In this document: positions 5,530 to 9,891 of the stretch, piece by piece
Layout of the letters: every line of letters begins with the position of its first letter
How positions within the stretch are numbered: the first letter of the stretch is position 1
From: Alphaproteobacteria bacterium
GTDB lineage: Bacteria; Pseudomonadota; Alphaproteobacteria; Sphingomonadales; Sphingomonadaceae
NCBI GenBank assembly: GCA_003241875.1
Contig: QBLU01000042.1
Coordinates: 1 to 33,961 of the forward strand
Direction of reading: 5' to 3'
DNA: 33,961 nt
Notes under the pieces: generated by a model
The model's input: the letters and a program-made list of their open reading frames with translations, nothing else
Told to the model about the DNA's origin: nothing
Databases searched by the model: none
Made by a program: the position numbers and the translations under genes

Positions 5530-5555
5530 GTAACAACCACCCTCAAACCAGCGAA
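5530..5555 (+). promoter_or_regulatory. Candidate SigF-type (ECF) promoter of the DUF1223 gene
   Basis: GTAACA, then exactly 16 nt, then CGAA, ending 33 bp before the ATG at 5589. It matches the GTAACC-N16-CGAA consensus that I recall for Caulobacter crescentus SigF promoters at all positions but the last base of the -35 element. A copy with a perfect match (7585-7610) precedes the sigF-like gene in this window. Spacing would put transcription start near 5561, leaving a short 5' leader of about 27 nt. Confidence 0.6.
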
Positions 5556-5588
5556 CTCTCCGGCACCCCCGCCACACGAGTCCCCGCC

Positions 5589-6266
5589 ATGCGCACCGCC
5601 ATCCTCGCCGTCGCCCTCATCGCCAGCACCGCCCAGGCCGCCGACGCCACCCATCCGACCGTTGTCGAACTTTTCCAGTCGCAGGGGTGCTCGTCGTGCC
5701 CGCCGGCCAACGCCAACGTCAACGCGCTGGCCGGGCGCCCCGATGTCCTGGCGCTGTCGTTCGCGGTAACTTACTGGGACGGGCTCGGCTGGAAGGACGG
5801 TTTCGCCAGGCCGCAATATACCGAGCGGCAATGGGCCTATGCTCGCGCTTTCGGCAATGCCCAGGTCTGGACGCCGCAGGTCGTCGTCAACGGCCGCGCC
5901 ACCGTCGTCGGCAGCAAGCTGGCGCCGTTGCAGGCGCTCGTTGCAAGGACCGACCGCGGCACCACCGGGCCGCTGCTTCGCATCGCCGGGGACACGGTGG
6001 TGGTCGACGGGCGCACCACGGCTGCAGTCGATGTCTGGCTCGTCCGTTACGACCCGCGCAGCGTCGAGGTCGCGATCAAGGCCGGCGAGAACGGCGGACG
6101 GACACTGCCGCACCGCAATATCGTCCATGAACTGGTGCGGATCGGGCGCTGGAGCGGCGGCAGCGCGCGTTTTGCCGTCCCGGCGGCGCGCCGGCCGGGC
6201 CTCGACACCGCGGCCTTTGTGCAGGCGGGTGCCGGCGGCGCCATCATCGCCGCGGCGCGCGGTTGA
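5589..6266 (+). CDS. DUF1223 secreted thioredoxin-like protein
   Basis: 225 residues. Signal peptide MRTAILAVALIASTAQA cleaves before ADATHPTVVELF. The DUF1223 family has a thioredoxin-like fold. The redox-type motif C34-S-S-C37 lies in ELFQSQGCSSCPPANANVN. Further family stretches are YWDGLGWKDGFARPQYTERQ and TPQVVVNGRATVVGS (residues about 59-110). A beta-rich second half (about 125-225) follows. It is probably a periplasmic redox or thiol-related protein; no substrate is known. It stands alone on the plus strand and ends 3 bp from the convergent nrsF stop. A SigF-type promoter sits directly upstream, so control by the neighbouring ECF sigma factor is a strong inference. Confidence 0.9.
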   Translation: MRTAILAVALIASTAQAADATHPTVVELFQSQGCSSCPPANANVNALAGRPDVLALSFAVTYWDGLGWKDGFARPQYTERQWAYARAFGNAQVWTPQVVVNGRATVVGSKLAPLQALVARTDRGTTGPLLRIAGDTVVVDGRTTAAVDVWLVRYDPRSVEVAIKAGENGGRTLPHRNIVHELVRIGRWSGGSARFAVPAARRPGLDTAAFVQAGAGGAIIAAARG

Positions 6267-6269
6267 GCT

Positions 6270-6935
6270 TTACCAGCGCACCAGCCGCGGCAGCAGCCAG
6301 CGGCTGAGCAGCGCCACGCCGAGCACGGCGCCGCCGTACCAGACGGCGACATACAGCGGATCATCGTGGCTGCAGTGAAATCCGAAGACAAAGGCCCCGG
6401 AACCGGCCGCCGCCAGCCCGGCCGCCATCGCCGTTTGTTCGGGCCGGGTCGGCGCCCCCCGCCGCATCAGCGCGACGAGCGCCGCGATCATTGGCAGCGA
6501 CAGCAGGAAGATACTGATCAGGCAGTCGACACCCTGCCGCCAGTCCAGCCGTTCGGCCAGCGACGGCGCGTGCGTGGTCGCATCGATCAGCCAGCCGAGC
6601 CCGAGTGCAACGGGAACAACGACGCCCAGCGCCCGCCACAGGCGCGCCAGCCGCGGGCCATTGGTGACCGCGGGATCGAGCGAGACCAGCAGCGCCGTCG
6701 CCGACAGGCCGGCAAAGATCGCCAGGGCTGCCGCCTTCCACCAAAAGGCCATGTCACCCATTGCGGCGGGCATGTCGGGCCGCATGCCGCGCAGCGCGAT
6801 CAGCAGCGGAATCTCGACAATAACGAGCGCCGCGATGACCAGCGCATCCCGTGTCCAGTGCCGCGGCCGCACCGGGCGCAGGTCGGCGACAAGATCGTCG
6901 ATCAACGGATCATGCGGGGTAAAATCACGCGTCAT
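6270..6935 (-). CDS. nrsF: NrsF-type membrane anti-sigma factor (DUF1109)
   Basis: 221 residues with six predicted transmembrane segments (about 31-48, 63-84, 100-117, 136-155, 168-186, 195-215). The short cytoplasmic N-terminus HDPLIDDLVADLRPVRP is the typical sigma-binding part of DUF1109/NrsF proteins. The family holds an ECF sigma factor inactive at the inner membrane. Two cysteines, Cys138 (GVDCLIS) and Cys188 (GFHCSHDD), lie 50 residues apart. I recall Caulobacter NrsF using Cys131 and Cys181 in the response to dichromate and cadmium, the same spacing. The ATG at 6935 is preferred over a GTG just before it; either way the start overlaps the sigma gene's end (11 bp), so the two are translationally coupled. 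Confidence 0.93.
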   Translation of the reverse strand: MTRDFTPHDPLIDDLVADLRPVRPRHWTRDALVIAALVIVEIPLLIALRGMRPDMPAAMGDMAFWWKAAALAIFAGLSATALLVSLDPAVTNGPRLARLWRALGVVVPVALGLGWLIDATTHAPSLAERLDWRQGVDCLISIFLLSLPMIAALVALMRRGAPTRPEQTAMAAGLAAAGSGAFVFGFHCSHDDPLYVAVWYGGAVLGVALLSRWLLPRLVRW

Positions 6936-7524
6936 CACTGTTACCTTCGACCAATCGTGCCAGCCGGCCGAGGCCGCGATGGATGTTCACCTTGACCAGC
7001 GCGACCGATTGGCCGGTCCGCGCCGCTGCTTCCTCGATCGACAGGCCATCGATCTTGACCAGCCGGATGACCTCGGCCTGTGCCGGCTTCAGCGTCGCCA
7101 TCAGGCCGCGCAGGGCCGCGGCACTGGTCACCGCCGTTTCATGATCGGGGGTCGACAGCGTGTCGGGCAGGACGTCGGCGGCATGACGCCCAGCGTTGCG
7201 CAGCCGGTCGATCCATTTGTAGCGCGCGATGCCGGCGAGCCACGGCCCGAACGGCCGCGCCGGATCCCAGGTGTGGCGTTTGGCATGGATGGCGACCAGC
7301 GTGTCCTGCACGGCATCCTCGACCGCCGAAGGCGGCAGCCGCCGGGCGAAATAGCGCAGCAGCCAGGGCCGCAGCTCGGCGAGCAGCCGGCGATAGGGCG
7401 CCGCTTCGCCGGCCTGGGCGGCGGCCATAAGGGCAGCCCAGCCGTGCGGATCGGTGTCGGCCGCGGTCCCCGGTGGCGACTCAGGCGGCGGCACGACGGC
7501 AAGCGAAGCAAATGCGGCGAACAT
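6925..7524 (-). CDS. sigF: ECF RNA polymerase sigma factor, SigF-like
   Basis: 199 residues from the ATG at 7524, which has GGGAAGG at a good distance; an upstream GTG (7533) sits on top of that site. Sigma-2 region at about 43-112 (AYxRLL-type start PYRRLLAELRPWLLRYF, VEDAVQDTLVAIHAKRHTWD, WLAGIARYKWIDRLR). Sigma-4 region at about 137-190 (LKPAQAEVIRLVKIDGLSIE, EAAARTGQSVALVKVNIHRG). Small size, no extra domains, and the overlapping nrsF gene identify it as the SigF/ECF type of alphaproteobacteria that responds to oxidative or heavy-metal stress. An autoregulatory promoter is visible 61 bp upstream. Metal or oxidant sensing in this organism is inferred from family knowledge. Confidence 0.94.
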   Translation of the reverse strand: MFAAFASLAVVPPPESPPGTAADTDPHGWAALMAAAQAGEAAPYRRLLAELRPWLLRYFARRLPPSAVEDAVQDTLVAIHAKRHTWDPARPFGPWLAGIARYKWIDRLRNAGRHAADVLPDTLSTPDHETAVTSAAALRGLMATLKPAQAEVIRLVKIDGLSIEEAAARTGQSVALVKVNIHRGLGRLARLVEGNSDDA

Positions 7525-7584
7525 CGCTGCCACCTTCCCGGCATGGCGCCTTTTGATATCGCGCGACTTGCCACGTCCCGGTCA

Positions 7585-7610
7585 TTCGCCGGCGCGCCGG
7601 GAAAGGTTAC
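7585..7610 (-). promoter_or_regulatory. SigF-type autoregulatory promoter of sigF-nrsF
   Basis: Read on the minus strand: GTAACC (7610-7605), a 16-nt spacer, CGAA (7588-7585). This equals the GTAACC-N16-CGAA consensus that I recall for Caulobacter SigF targets. It lies 61 bp before the sigma gene's ATG, giving a leader of about 55 nt. The spacer contains a perfect 12-bp palindrome CCGGCGCGCCGG (7589-7600). Autoregulation is the expected behaviour of such sigma operons. Confidence 0.72.
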
Positions 7611-7617
7611 ACCCGGG

Positions 7618-9036
7618 TCAGTCGCCGGTCAGGATGCGATCGACCAGCTGCTTCACCGTGGGCACGAAGCCATTCGAATAGAACGGGTCCTTGGCGAAGC
7701 GGAAGGCCGAATGCCCGCCGAACATCAGGTTCTGCTCGGTATCGCCGCCGTGGACGATGTCCTGCAGAGTCTTCTGGATGCAGAAACTACGCGGGTCGGC
7801 GAGCCGGCCGGTGGTGTTGGTCTCGTTGTCGGCCCAGCTCGAAAAGCCGCATTGCGACAGGCAGCCCATGCAATCCGACTGGTCCTTGCGGATGACGGCC
7901 TTGTCGGCGGGCGTGACGAAGATCAGCGTGTTGTCGGGCGTCTTCAGCGCGTCGGTAAAGCCGGCGCCGTACCAGCCGCGAGCGTGCAGCAGGTCGTCAC
8001 GGGTGACGTAATAATTCTTCCGGCCGACGCCGACATCGAGCAGGAACTGGTGGTCGCCGGTCGCCGTCGTCGAAAATGCGACCTGGCGTTCCGACCGGCC
8101 TTCGAGGTTGCGCAGGAACGGGTTGCGCACCGCGCTCGAATAGAAACCCGTCGGCGAGAATTTGTGGAGCAGGATGTCGCCTTCCTCCAGCGTCATCAGC
8201 CGCTGTTTCCAGCCTTCCGGGATCGGGCTTTCCTGGGTTAGCAATGGCCGGGTGCCGAACTGGAAAACGATCTGGCCGAGCTCGGGATTGTCGATCCAGT
8301 CGGTCCATTCGCGCAGCGCCCAGACCCCGCCGGCCATGATGATCGGTACCGAATCGGCGATGCCGGCTTCGCGCATGGTGGCGCGCAGGTCGCGAACCCG
8401 GGGGAACGGGTCCTGCGGCACGCGCGGGTCCTCGGCGTTCGACAGGCCGTTGTGGCCGCCGGCGAGCCAGGGATCTTCGTAAACAACAGCGCCGAGCCAT
8501 TCCGCAGCCTTGGAATAGGCGCGTTTCCACAGCGCGCGAAAGGCGCGGGCGCTGCTGATGATCGGATAATAATAGACTTCGTGATGTGCAGCGATCTCGC
8601 TCAGCTTGTACGGCATGCCGGCGCCGCAGGTGACGCCATTGACGAGGCCCTTGGTGCGCGACAGCACGCCTTCGAGGACCCGCTGGGCGCCGCCCATTTC
8701 CCACAGGACGTTGATGTTGATGGCGCCGATGCCGCGCTGCAGTTCGCTCGATGCCATGTCATAGGCGCGCTCGACCTGCTGGACGGCGCCGGCAATGGCA
8801 TAATCGACGAGCTCCTCGTGGCGCTCGCGGCGGGTCAGGGCGCGATAGACCTGGGGGATGATGCGGCCGGTCGGATCATAGCTGTCGGCATTGACGGCGG
8901 AGATGGTGCCAACACCGCCGGCCAGCGCCCAGGCACCGGATGAAAGGTGATTGGTCGCGGCGACGCCCTTGCCGCCTTCGACCAGCGGCCAGACCTGGCG
9001 GCCGCCCATCGCTATCTGCTTCAGCCCGTTCAACAT
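7618..9036 (-). CDS. Nitronate monooxygenase-like flavin enzyme with putative Fe-S motif
   Basis: 472 residues from the ATG at 9036. The frame extends to 9786 but that part is antisense to the next gene and unconserved in look. It is an FMN TIM-barrel of the NPD/nitronate monooxygenase superfamily. Stretches include GGRQVWPLVEGGKGVAATNH (about 11-30), the glycine-rich VNGVTCGAGMPYKLSE, VVYEDPWLAGGHNGLSN and IIMAGGVWALREW. Near the C-terminus Cys389-x2-Cys392-x3-Cys396 (CMGCLSQC) plus Cys419 form a cluster resembling the [4Fe-4S] ligands of old-yellow-enzyme-type dienoyl-CoA reductases. Such long forms are frequent in sphingomonads under the name nitronate monooxygenase, but the true substrate is unproven. 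Divergent from the YqcI/YcgG gene (159-bp gap). Confidence 0.88.
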   Translation of the reverse strand: MLNGLKQIAMGGRQVWPLVEGGKGVAATNHLSSGAWALAGGVGTISAVNADSYDPTGRIIPQVYRALTRRERHEELVDYAIAGAVQQVERAYDMASSELQRGIGAININVLWEMGGAQRVLEGVLSRTKGLVNGVTCGAGMPYKLSEIAAHHEVYYYPIISSARAFRALWKRAYSKAAEWLGAVVYEDPWLAGGHNGLSNAEDPRVPQDPFPRVRDLRATMREAGIADSVPIIMAGGVWALREWTDWIDNPELGQIVFQFGTRPLLTQESPIPEGWKQRLMTLEEGDILLHKFSPTGFYSSAVRNPFLRNLEGRSERQVAFSTTATGDHQFLLDVGVGRKNYYVTRDDLLHARGWYGAGFTDALKTPDNTLIFVTPADKAVIRKDQSDCMGCLSQCGFSSWADNETNTTGRLADPRSFCIQKTLQDIVHGGDTEQNLMFGGHSAFRFAKDPFYSNGFVPTVKQLVDRILTGD

Positions 9037-9195
9037 GGTATCTGGATCCAGCCTGGCGCCCCCGCGCGCATTGCAATGGTGTAAGGCCCAATCGTGCCCA
9101 AAGCGCAAGTCCATGATGCGCGGCGCACGGCCACAGGGGCCGACTGATAAGGAACATTTGGCATCGCTATCGGTTTCGCGTGGCAGGAGACGTTC

Positions 9196-9891
9196 ATGAC
9201 CCCCGATAATGACCACCCGCTGGCGGAGCGCTTTCGCGCGTTCGTCCGTAATCCCGAATTTCCGTGCGTCGGCGCCAAATCGGCGCTGAGCCGAGGGCGC
9301 ATGCGCATCGTCGTTGCCCGCGACCTGGCGTCGGCCTGGGATGATCTCCGCATCCTGCCCCAACTGACGGCTCTGGCGAAAGATTATCGCGCCGAGCCTG
9401 AGTTGTTCCAGTCGCTGGTCGTCGTTTTCGAGGGCCCCGAGGCAATCGAGGAGGCGGTGTTCGAGCATCACCTGTGGGAACGTGTCCAGTCGCTGGCCGA
9501 CAAGGACGCCCTCTGGTTTGGCCAGCCGCACGACCCGCGCGTCAGCGACGATCCCGACGATCCGCATTTCTCGCTGAGTTTCGGAGGCGAGGCCTTCTTC
9601 GTCGTCGGCCTGCATCCCGGCGCCAGCCGCCCGGCGCGGCGATTCGAGCGCCCGGCGCTGGTCTTCAACCTCCACGACCAGTTCGAGGAATTGCGTCGCC
9701 AGCAGCGTTACGAGGGCCTTCGCGCCAAGATCCTGCAGCGCGATGAGGCGCTGGCCGGCTCGATCAATCCGATGCTGGCCCGTCACGGCGCTTCGTCGGA
9801 GGCGCGCCAGTACAGCGGCCGCGTCGTCGGCAACGACTGGAAATGCCCCTATGCCGGGCGCGGTGCCGGTGCCGAGCTCGAACAGGCCTGA
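9196..9891 (+). CDS. YqcI/YcgG family protein (GntA-like heme-dependent N-hydroxylase family)
   Basis: 231 residues. Family signatures are the N-terminal FPCVGAKSAL (about 22-31), a central FFVVGLHPGASRPARRF (about 134-150), LVFNLHDQFEELR and a C-terminal NDWKCPYAG. Members studied include GntA of guanitoxin biosynthesis, a heme enzyme that N-hydroxylates a guanidino group; related enzymes act on arginine-like substrates. His residues in GLHP and NLHDQ are conserved-looking and could serve the heme site (inference). AGGAG lies 8 nt before the ATG. Only 3 nt separate it from the DUF1989 gene, so the two are an operon. No guanitoxin cluster is present, so the native substrate is unknown and the name GntA should not be read as toxin production. 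Confidence 0.88.
   Translation: MTPDNDHPLAERFRAFVRNPEFPCVGAKSALSRGRMRIVVARDLASAWDDLRILPQLTALAKDYRAEPELFQSLVVVFEGPEAIEEAVFEHHLWERVQSLADKDALWFGQPHDPRVSDDPDDPHFSLSFGGEAFFVVGLHPGASRPARRFERPALVFNLHDQFEELRRQQRYEGLRAKILQRDEALAGSINPMLARHGASSEARQYSGRVVGNDWKCPYAGRGAGAELEQA

Follow-up and report, generated by a model that had tools for sequence, protein, structure and literature searches.

The 33,961-nucleotide stretch of contig QBLU01000042.1 analyzed here (the window) carries a locus that we interpret, with a probability of about 80%, as an envelope stress switch of the SigF/NrsF type (extracytoplasmic function [ECF] sigma factor group ECF16) with a DUF1223 gene as its direct target, operating through the chain of events proposed below. 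Exactly two matches to the sequence GTAACN-N16-CGAA occur in the window, one before sigF and the other before the DUF1223 gene, and the second is conserved upstream of DUF1223 genes in relatives. Judged from this conserved site and from the gene order in related genomes, DUF1223 is very probably a standard part of the SigF envelope stress response. It would then represent a conserved further member of a known regulon that has apparently been overlooked, and not a system of a new kind.

The promoter-like site of the DUF1223 gene, GTAACA-N16-CGAA, lies on the forward strand at positions 5530 to 5555, with 33 nt between its CGAA and the ATG of the gene (5589 to 6266; 225 amino acids; Pfam PF06764, E value of 8e-58). 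On the opposite strand, sigF (6925 to 7533; Pfam Sigma70_r2 and Sigma70_r4_2; start codon either GTG at 7533 or ATG at 7524) is followed by nrsF (6270 to 6938; PF06532, E value of 2e-42), a membrane anti-sigma factor gene with a GTG start at 6938. The putative autoregulatory promoter of sigF-nrsF, GTAACC-N16-CGAA, is found at 7610 to 7585 on the minus strand, 51 nt from the sigF GTG. The nrsF and DUF1223 genes are convergent, their last bases being 6270 and 6266. A preliminary description of this DNA had reported the two sites with equal 16-nt spacers and named the three genes; the sites were recovered exactly as given and the Pfam assignments agree. A SigF/NrsF (ECF16) locus was recognized by four features: an ECF sigma factor containing regions 2 and 4, an NrsF gene behind it, two conserved cysteines in NrsF, and, ahead of sigF, a promoter of the form GTAAC(C)-N16-CGAA. 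The motif given in that description for Caulobacter was also correct, as the excerpted text of PMC3511200 gives GTAACC-N16-CGAA as the SigF-binding sequence. A reading frame on the same strand as sigF (7618 to 9786), whose 3′ half resembles nitronate monooxygenase by eye, stops 7 bases ahead of the sigF promoter site; transcripts of this frame could therefore run on into sigF-nrsF.

The claim that no other such pair exists in the window holds under a formal scan. Among 100 dinucleotide shuffles of the window, the mean number of exact sites was 0.03 and the largest was 1, with none reaching the two observed. Allowing one mismatch gave 4 sites against 1.19 expected, and this relaxed matching is uninformative because 7 of the 100 shuffles also reached 4. 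The preliminary description had further proposed scanning the whole genome and related sphingomonads, and only the second half of this proposal was productive. The 3.82-Mb genome of the window contains 5 exact GTAAC[CA] sites compared with 4 for a reversed control pattern; a single site therefore means little genome-wide, and the argument rests on placement and on conservation in relatives, which is strongly supportive.

To assess conservation, upstream stretches of at most 350 nt were read for 105 DUF1223 domains in 98 genomes belonging to the window's family (taken as Sphingomonadaceae) and for 20 of the 30 DUF1223 matches from other families of the order. The family count omits a DUF1223 fragment in G150 (68 profile positions), and G259 is represented by an N-terminal piece only. 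All 96 DUF1223 genes from NrsF-containing genomes in this sample belong to the window's family; an exact site precedes 72 of them, 8 have a site with one mismatch, and 16 have none. Loss of the motif in relatives had been named beforehand as the observation that would overturn the proposed link, and the opposite was found. Genomes without NrsF (9 family genes and 20 from other families) gave no exact site in 29 genes, 4 sites with one mismatch, and 25 genes with none. Fisher's exact test of site against NrsF, which ignores relatedness, returned 4e-14 overall and 1e-5 within the family (72/96 versus 0/9). The 16-nt spacer is invariant, since spacers of 15 and 17 nt gave 0/96, and permuted motifs composed of the same letters averaged 0.09 hits among the 96 genes and reached 3 at most. 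Exact sites are spread over 29 of the 35 NrsF-containing genera with DUF1223 in the family sample. The sixth base of the motif is loose among the 72 exact sites (57 C, 10 T, 4 G, and the single A of the window), so the one-base difference between the two window sites carries little weight. This conserved SigF-type promoter upstream of DUF1223 is what would be expected of a SigF regulon member.

Adjacency to sigF-nrsF does not explain the DUF1223 site. Among the 72 genes preceded by an exact site, 15 have a listed NrsF gene within 10 kb, whereas at least 48 do not: in 26 cases NrsF lies at a greater distance on the same contig, and in 22 on a different contig. For the remaining 9, the place of NrsF is not listed. 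The sigF promoter itself was readable at 29 of 30 loci taken (L074 has too little upstream DNA), and a site stands at the corresponding place in 20 of them, the window included (13 exact and 7 with one mismatch), and is lacking in 9. G010 carries GCAAC in both its sigF and its DUF1223 promoter, a single case of apparent co-variation; a comparison by eye of SigF region 4.2 between GTAAC and GCAAC species revealed nothing diagnostic. Gene order provides a second line of evidence. In G211 (L143:79-3960), sigF, nrsF, a bufA-like gene, an MNIO gene (PF05114), a DUF2063 gene (bufC), and the DUF1223 gene form a run on one strand with small gaps. The bufA-like product, a cysteine-rich peptide of 87 residues, was assigned by eye and has no Pfam match. 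Searches by tblastn with the G211 proteins recovered the same order in G257, G387, and G294, each from two overlapping loci. These four genomes lack a site before DUF1223, which is the last gene of the run. G309 also has this order, there with bufC and DUF1223 some 1.5 kb apart. A position behind sigF-nrsF-buf accounts for 4 or 5 of the 16 siteless family genes and not for the others. The main text of two papers on MNIO clusters (PMC12452194 and PMC13097082) does not mention DUF1223.

Outside the family, the association extends through part of the class. The class sample of 370 genomes gave NrsF matches in 88 (82 above the cut-off) and DUF1223 matches in 189; from the latter, 92 DUF1223 genes outside the family were read, that of G688 with just 22 nt of upstream DNA. 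Exact sites precede 12 of the 63 genes from NrsF-containing genomes, with 5 more at one mismatch, compared with none of the 29 genes from genomes without NrsF, 2 of which have a one-mismatch site; G674 and G731 were counted among the latter, and G674 has an NrsF match below the cut-off. The nrsF and DUF1223 genes of G793 are convergent as in the window, and those of G709 and G628 are neighbors in a different arrangement. A further set consisted of the best 80 of at least 586 named loci from a probe alignment, which is not a random sample, and the first row of the probe itself bore the site. This set gave 26 exact and 5 one-mismatch sites, two of the exact loci (S. alba and the metagenome-assembled genome D8_MAG_00049) being already in the family set, and it includes no locus from Caulobacter vibrioides. 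Exact sites were found in many Mesorhizobium loci (as GTAACG), Neorhizobium, Rhizobium tubonense, Devosia, Chelatococcus reniformis, where sigF-nrsF stands beside the site-bearing DUF1223 gene, and two Dyella loci. Dyella belongs to the Gammaproteobacteria, and the exact SigF-type site before DUF1223 at these loci (L441 and L457) may have arrived with a horizontally transferred unit or may date from an old association.

The protein features are compatible with a redox function in the envelope. The window's DUF1223 protein has just two cysteines, arranged as C34-S-S-C37, in agreement with the CxxC noted earlier, and a structure model with fold comparison shows a thioredoxin domain followed by a C-terminal beta domain. 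The above-cut-off profile match, the CxxC, and the thioredoxin fold together place it in PF06764. Its N terminus is hydrophobic and, by eye, resembles a signal peptide ending in AQA. A homologue of solved structure, 2axo (Atu2684), is a structural-genomics entry of unknown function that gives no regulatory context, and no stated function for DUF1223 was found in the open-licence literature. The regulation, N terminus, CxxC, and fold suggest that DUF1223 acts as an envelope effector. The window's NrsF also has only two cysteines, residues 139 and 189 in a numbering that starts at the GTG at 6938; their separation of 50 residues equals that of C131 and C181 in Caulobacter NrsF.

Three exact sites exist in the genome of the window besides the two in the window. 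One of them (L001:1501-2068; G000:C21:72052-72619) precedes a gene assigned by Pfam to the DUF417 membrane proteins, a family that includes RclC of Escherichia coli, involved in reactive chlorine resistance. Exact sites were likewise found before the DUF417 genes of G012 and G017, and none at 9 other DUF417 loci read. The other two candidates were dropped after inspection by eye: L002 lies inside a thiolase-like reading frame, and L003 stands directly 3′ of a frame that resembles a subunit of an electron-transfer flavoprotein, with a terminator-like hairpin following the site. A secreted-looking, methionine-rich frame without Pfam match follows the L003 site (L003:1501-2077; G000:C45), which is probably a chance occurrence. 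For msrB, read as one copy per genome, an exact site is present in G018, G023, and G026, and sites with at most one mismatch are present in 16 of 19 genomes of the window's genus compared with 0 of 11 elsewhere in the order; most of those in the genus read GTAAC...CGTA. In G004 and G021 the motif stands before a cytochrome b561-like gene, followed in G004 (L217:1501-3025) by an MsrP-like molybdopterin oxidoreductase gene, and these genes match the MsrP target described for Caulobacter SigF in the excerpted text of PMC3511200 and PMC8224329; the pair in G004 resembles the MsrPQ targets of that sigma factor.

We infer the SigF dependence, the export, the trigger, and the chemical role that make up the following chain. 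Stress from oxidants or metals, for which published relatives point to copper, chromate, hypochlorite, or peroxide, would act on the two conserved cysteines of NrsF, and the attack on these cysteines would release SigF. RNA polymerase with SigF would then read sigF-nrsF from the 7610-7585 site and the DUF1223 gene from the 5530-5555 site, with the DUF417 gene probably, and the msrB gene possibly, as further targets in the same genome. The DUF1223 protein would be exported and serve as a two-cysteine, thioredoxin-like oxidoreductase of the envelope that reduces or protects oxidized or metal-attacked thiols, alongside methionine sulfoxide repair.

Published systems, cited here from excerpts, show how such a role could fit. 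The SigF-NrsF pair of Caulobacter crescentus (CC3253-CC3252) shares with the window the ECF sigma factor, the two-cysteine NrsF, and the site upstream of sigF. Its targets are bufferin-type clusters (DUF2282, DUF692, DUF2063, and DoxX) and MsrP, whereas a search of the window's genome for MNIO (PF05114) returned no match and hence no bufferin cluster by that measure. The regulon of the Bradyrhizobium EcfF-OsrA system (ECF16; PMC3420878) comprises, among others, methionine sulfoxide reductases and Bll1026, a periplasmic thioredoxin anchored in the membrane. Bll1026 is proposed to donate electrons to a periplasmic methionine sulfoxide reductase and, in function, closely parallels what is suggested here for DUF1223. 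EcfF differs in its motif, GTAAC(g,a)-N14-15-(c,t)CG(t,a), and its thioredoxin is paired with a DsbD-like protein. RpoE7 of Sinorhizobium and BcrS of Brucella (ECF16; PMC6180224, PMC8315932) have the same kind of sigma and anti-sigma factors and the same motif, the targets being bufferin-type for RpoE7 and a methionine-rich peptide and methionine sulfoxide reductase for BcrS; the excerpts of these accounts name no DUF1223. Searches of the open-licence literature found neither a link between DUF1223 and a sigma factor nor a study treating NrsF together with ECF sigma factors in Sphingomonas, and the matches listed for bufferins together with SigF were unrelated.

Several observations weigh against direct SigF control of DUF1223 or against parts of the proposed chain. 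The association of motif and NrsF is confounded by phylogeny, and a test on phylogenetically independent pairs had no power: the 7 supported pairs gave averages of 0.8 with NrsF, 0.0 against, and 6.2 without difference for the exact motif, and 0.9, 0.6, and 5.4, respectively, when one-mismatch sites were counted. Twelve NrsF-containing genomes hold 62 exact GTAACC sites, barely above the 52 of the reversed control, and most single sites may therefore be background. No site precedes DUF1223 in 46 of the 63 genes from NrsF-containing genomes outside the family or in 49 of the best 80 named loci. The excerpted target lists of C. crescentus SigF (PMC3511200, PMC8224329) name no DUF1223 gene, so the link either is not universal or was missed there. 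PF06764 matches were obtained in two control genomes, one of them Caulobacter vibrioides, and just one of the two matches exceeds the cut-off. As to the trigger, the excerpted accounts state that Caulobacter SigF targets are not induced by agents that generate reactive oxygen (PMC3511200), and Sinorhizobium RpoE7 fusions are not induced by peroxide, cadmium, or chromate (PMC6180224, PMC8315932). The msrB site of the window's genome (L370, minus strand, G000:C100), GCAACC-N16-CGAA at 1957-1932 with msrB starting from 1860, has one mismatch and overlaps the end of the upstream reading frame, which makes msrB a weaker target claim. Finally, near-motif sites occur where NrsF was not found, namely one-mismatch sites before 4 of the 9 family DUF1223 genes from such genomes (G002, G022, G015, and G392) and msrB near-motifs, mostly GTAAC...CGTA, in G002, G005, G009, and G015.

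These last cases leave room for a related second sigma factor or for undetected NrsF, and they bear on the explanation that the DUF1223 element is real but has as its main reader a different ECF sigma factor with similar specificity, SigF being only one of several that use it. The excerpted report that Caulobacter sigF is transcribed both by SigF and by a second unknown regulator (PMC3511200) points the same way. We nevertheless consider this explanation unlikely, given that none of the 29 DUF1223 genes of genomes without NrsF has an exact site, that the DUF1223 site is identical in sequence and spacer to the sigF promoter, and that sigF, nrsF, buf genes, and DUF1223 follow one another in four genomes. 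The position of DUF1223 directly behind bufC in those four runs could also mean that it is an accessory of the biosynthesis of bufferins (MNIO-modified copper-binding peptides) and that SigF control merely follows from this. Such a role is improbable, as eight genomes (G004, G012, G013, G017, G023, G026, G033, and G050) carry exact sites and no PF05114 match. As the only explanation of the window it was rejected, for the window's own genome has a SigF-type site and no MNIO match. The count of 5 sites against a control of 4 in that genome would fit a coincidence of two background matches on either side of a single locus; the window shuffles and the fixed-spacer conservation in 72 of 96 genes, against 0.09 for permuted motifs, rule out chance and leave it a negligible probability.

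The direct SigF-DUF1223 link, as a regulatory inference from the conserved site and the buf-run gene order, is thus supported. In a broader form of it, DUF1223 would be a core, anciently recruited effector of SigF/NrsF (ECF16) systems throughout the Alphaproteobacteria and in some Gammaproteobacteria. It would act in the envelope as a thioredoxin-like reductase of thiols damaged by copper or oxidants, partnering bufferins where these are present and methionine sulfoxide repair and DUF417 elsewhere; we regard this tentatively, at somewhat short of an even chance. Matches to DUF1223 occur in 91 of the 397 family genomes sampled and in 189 of the 370 sampled from the class, and tying this protein to a defined sigma factor supplies conditions, partners, and a simple genetic test. 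If true, the link would extend the regulon of SigF past bufferins and MsrP; it also suggests that a reducing partner belongs to the envelope response to copper and oxidants.
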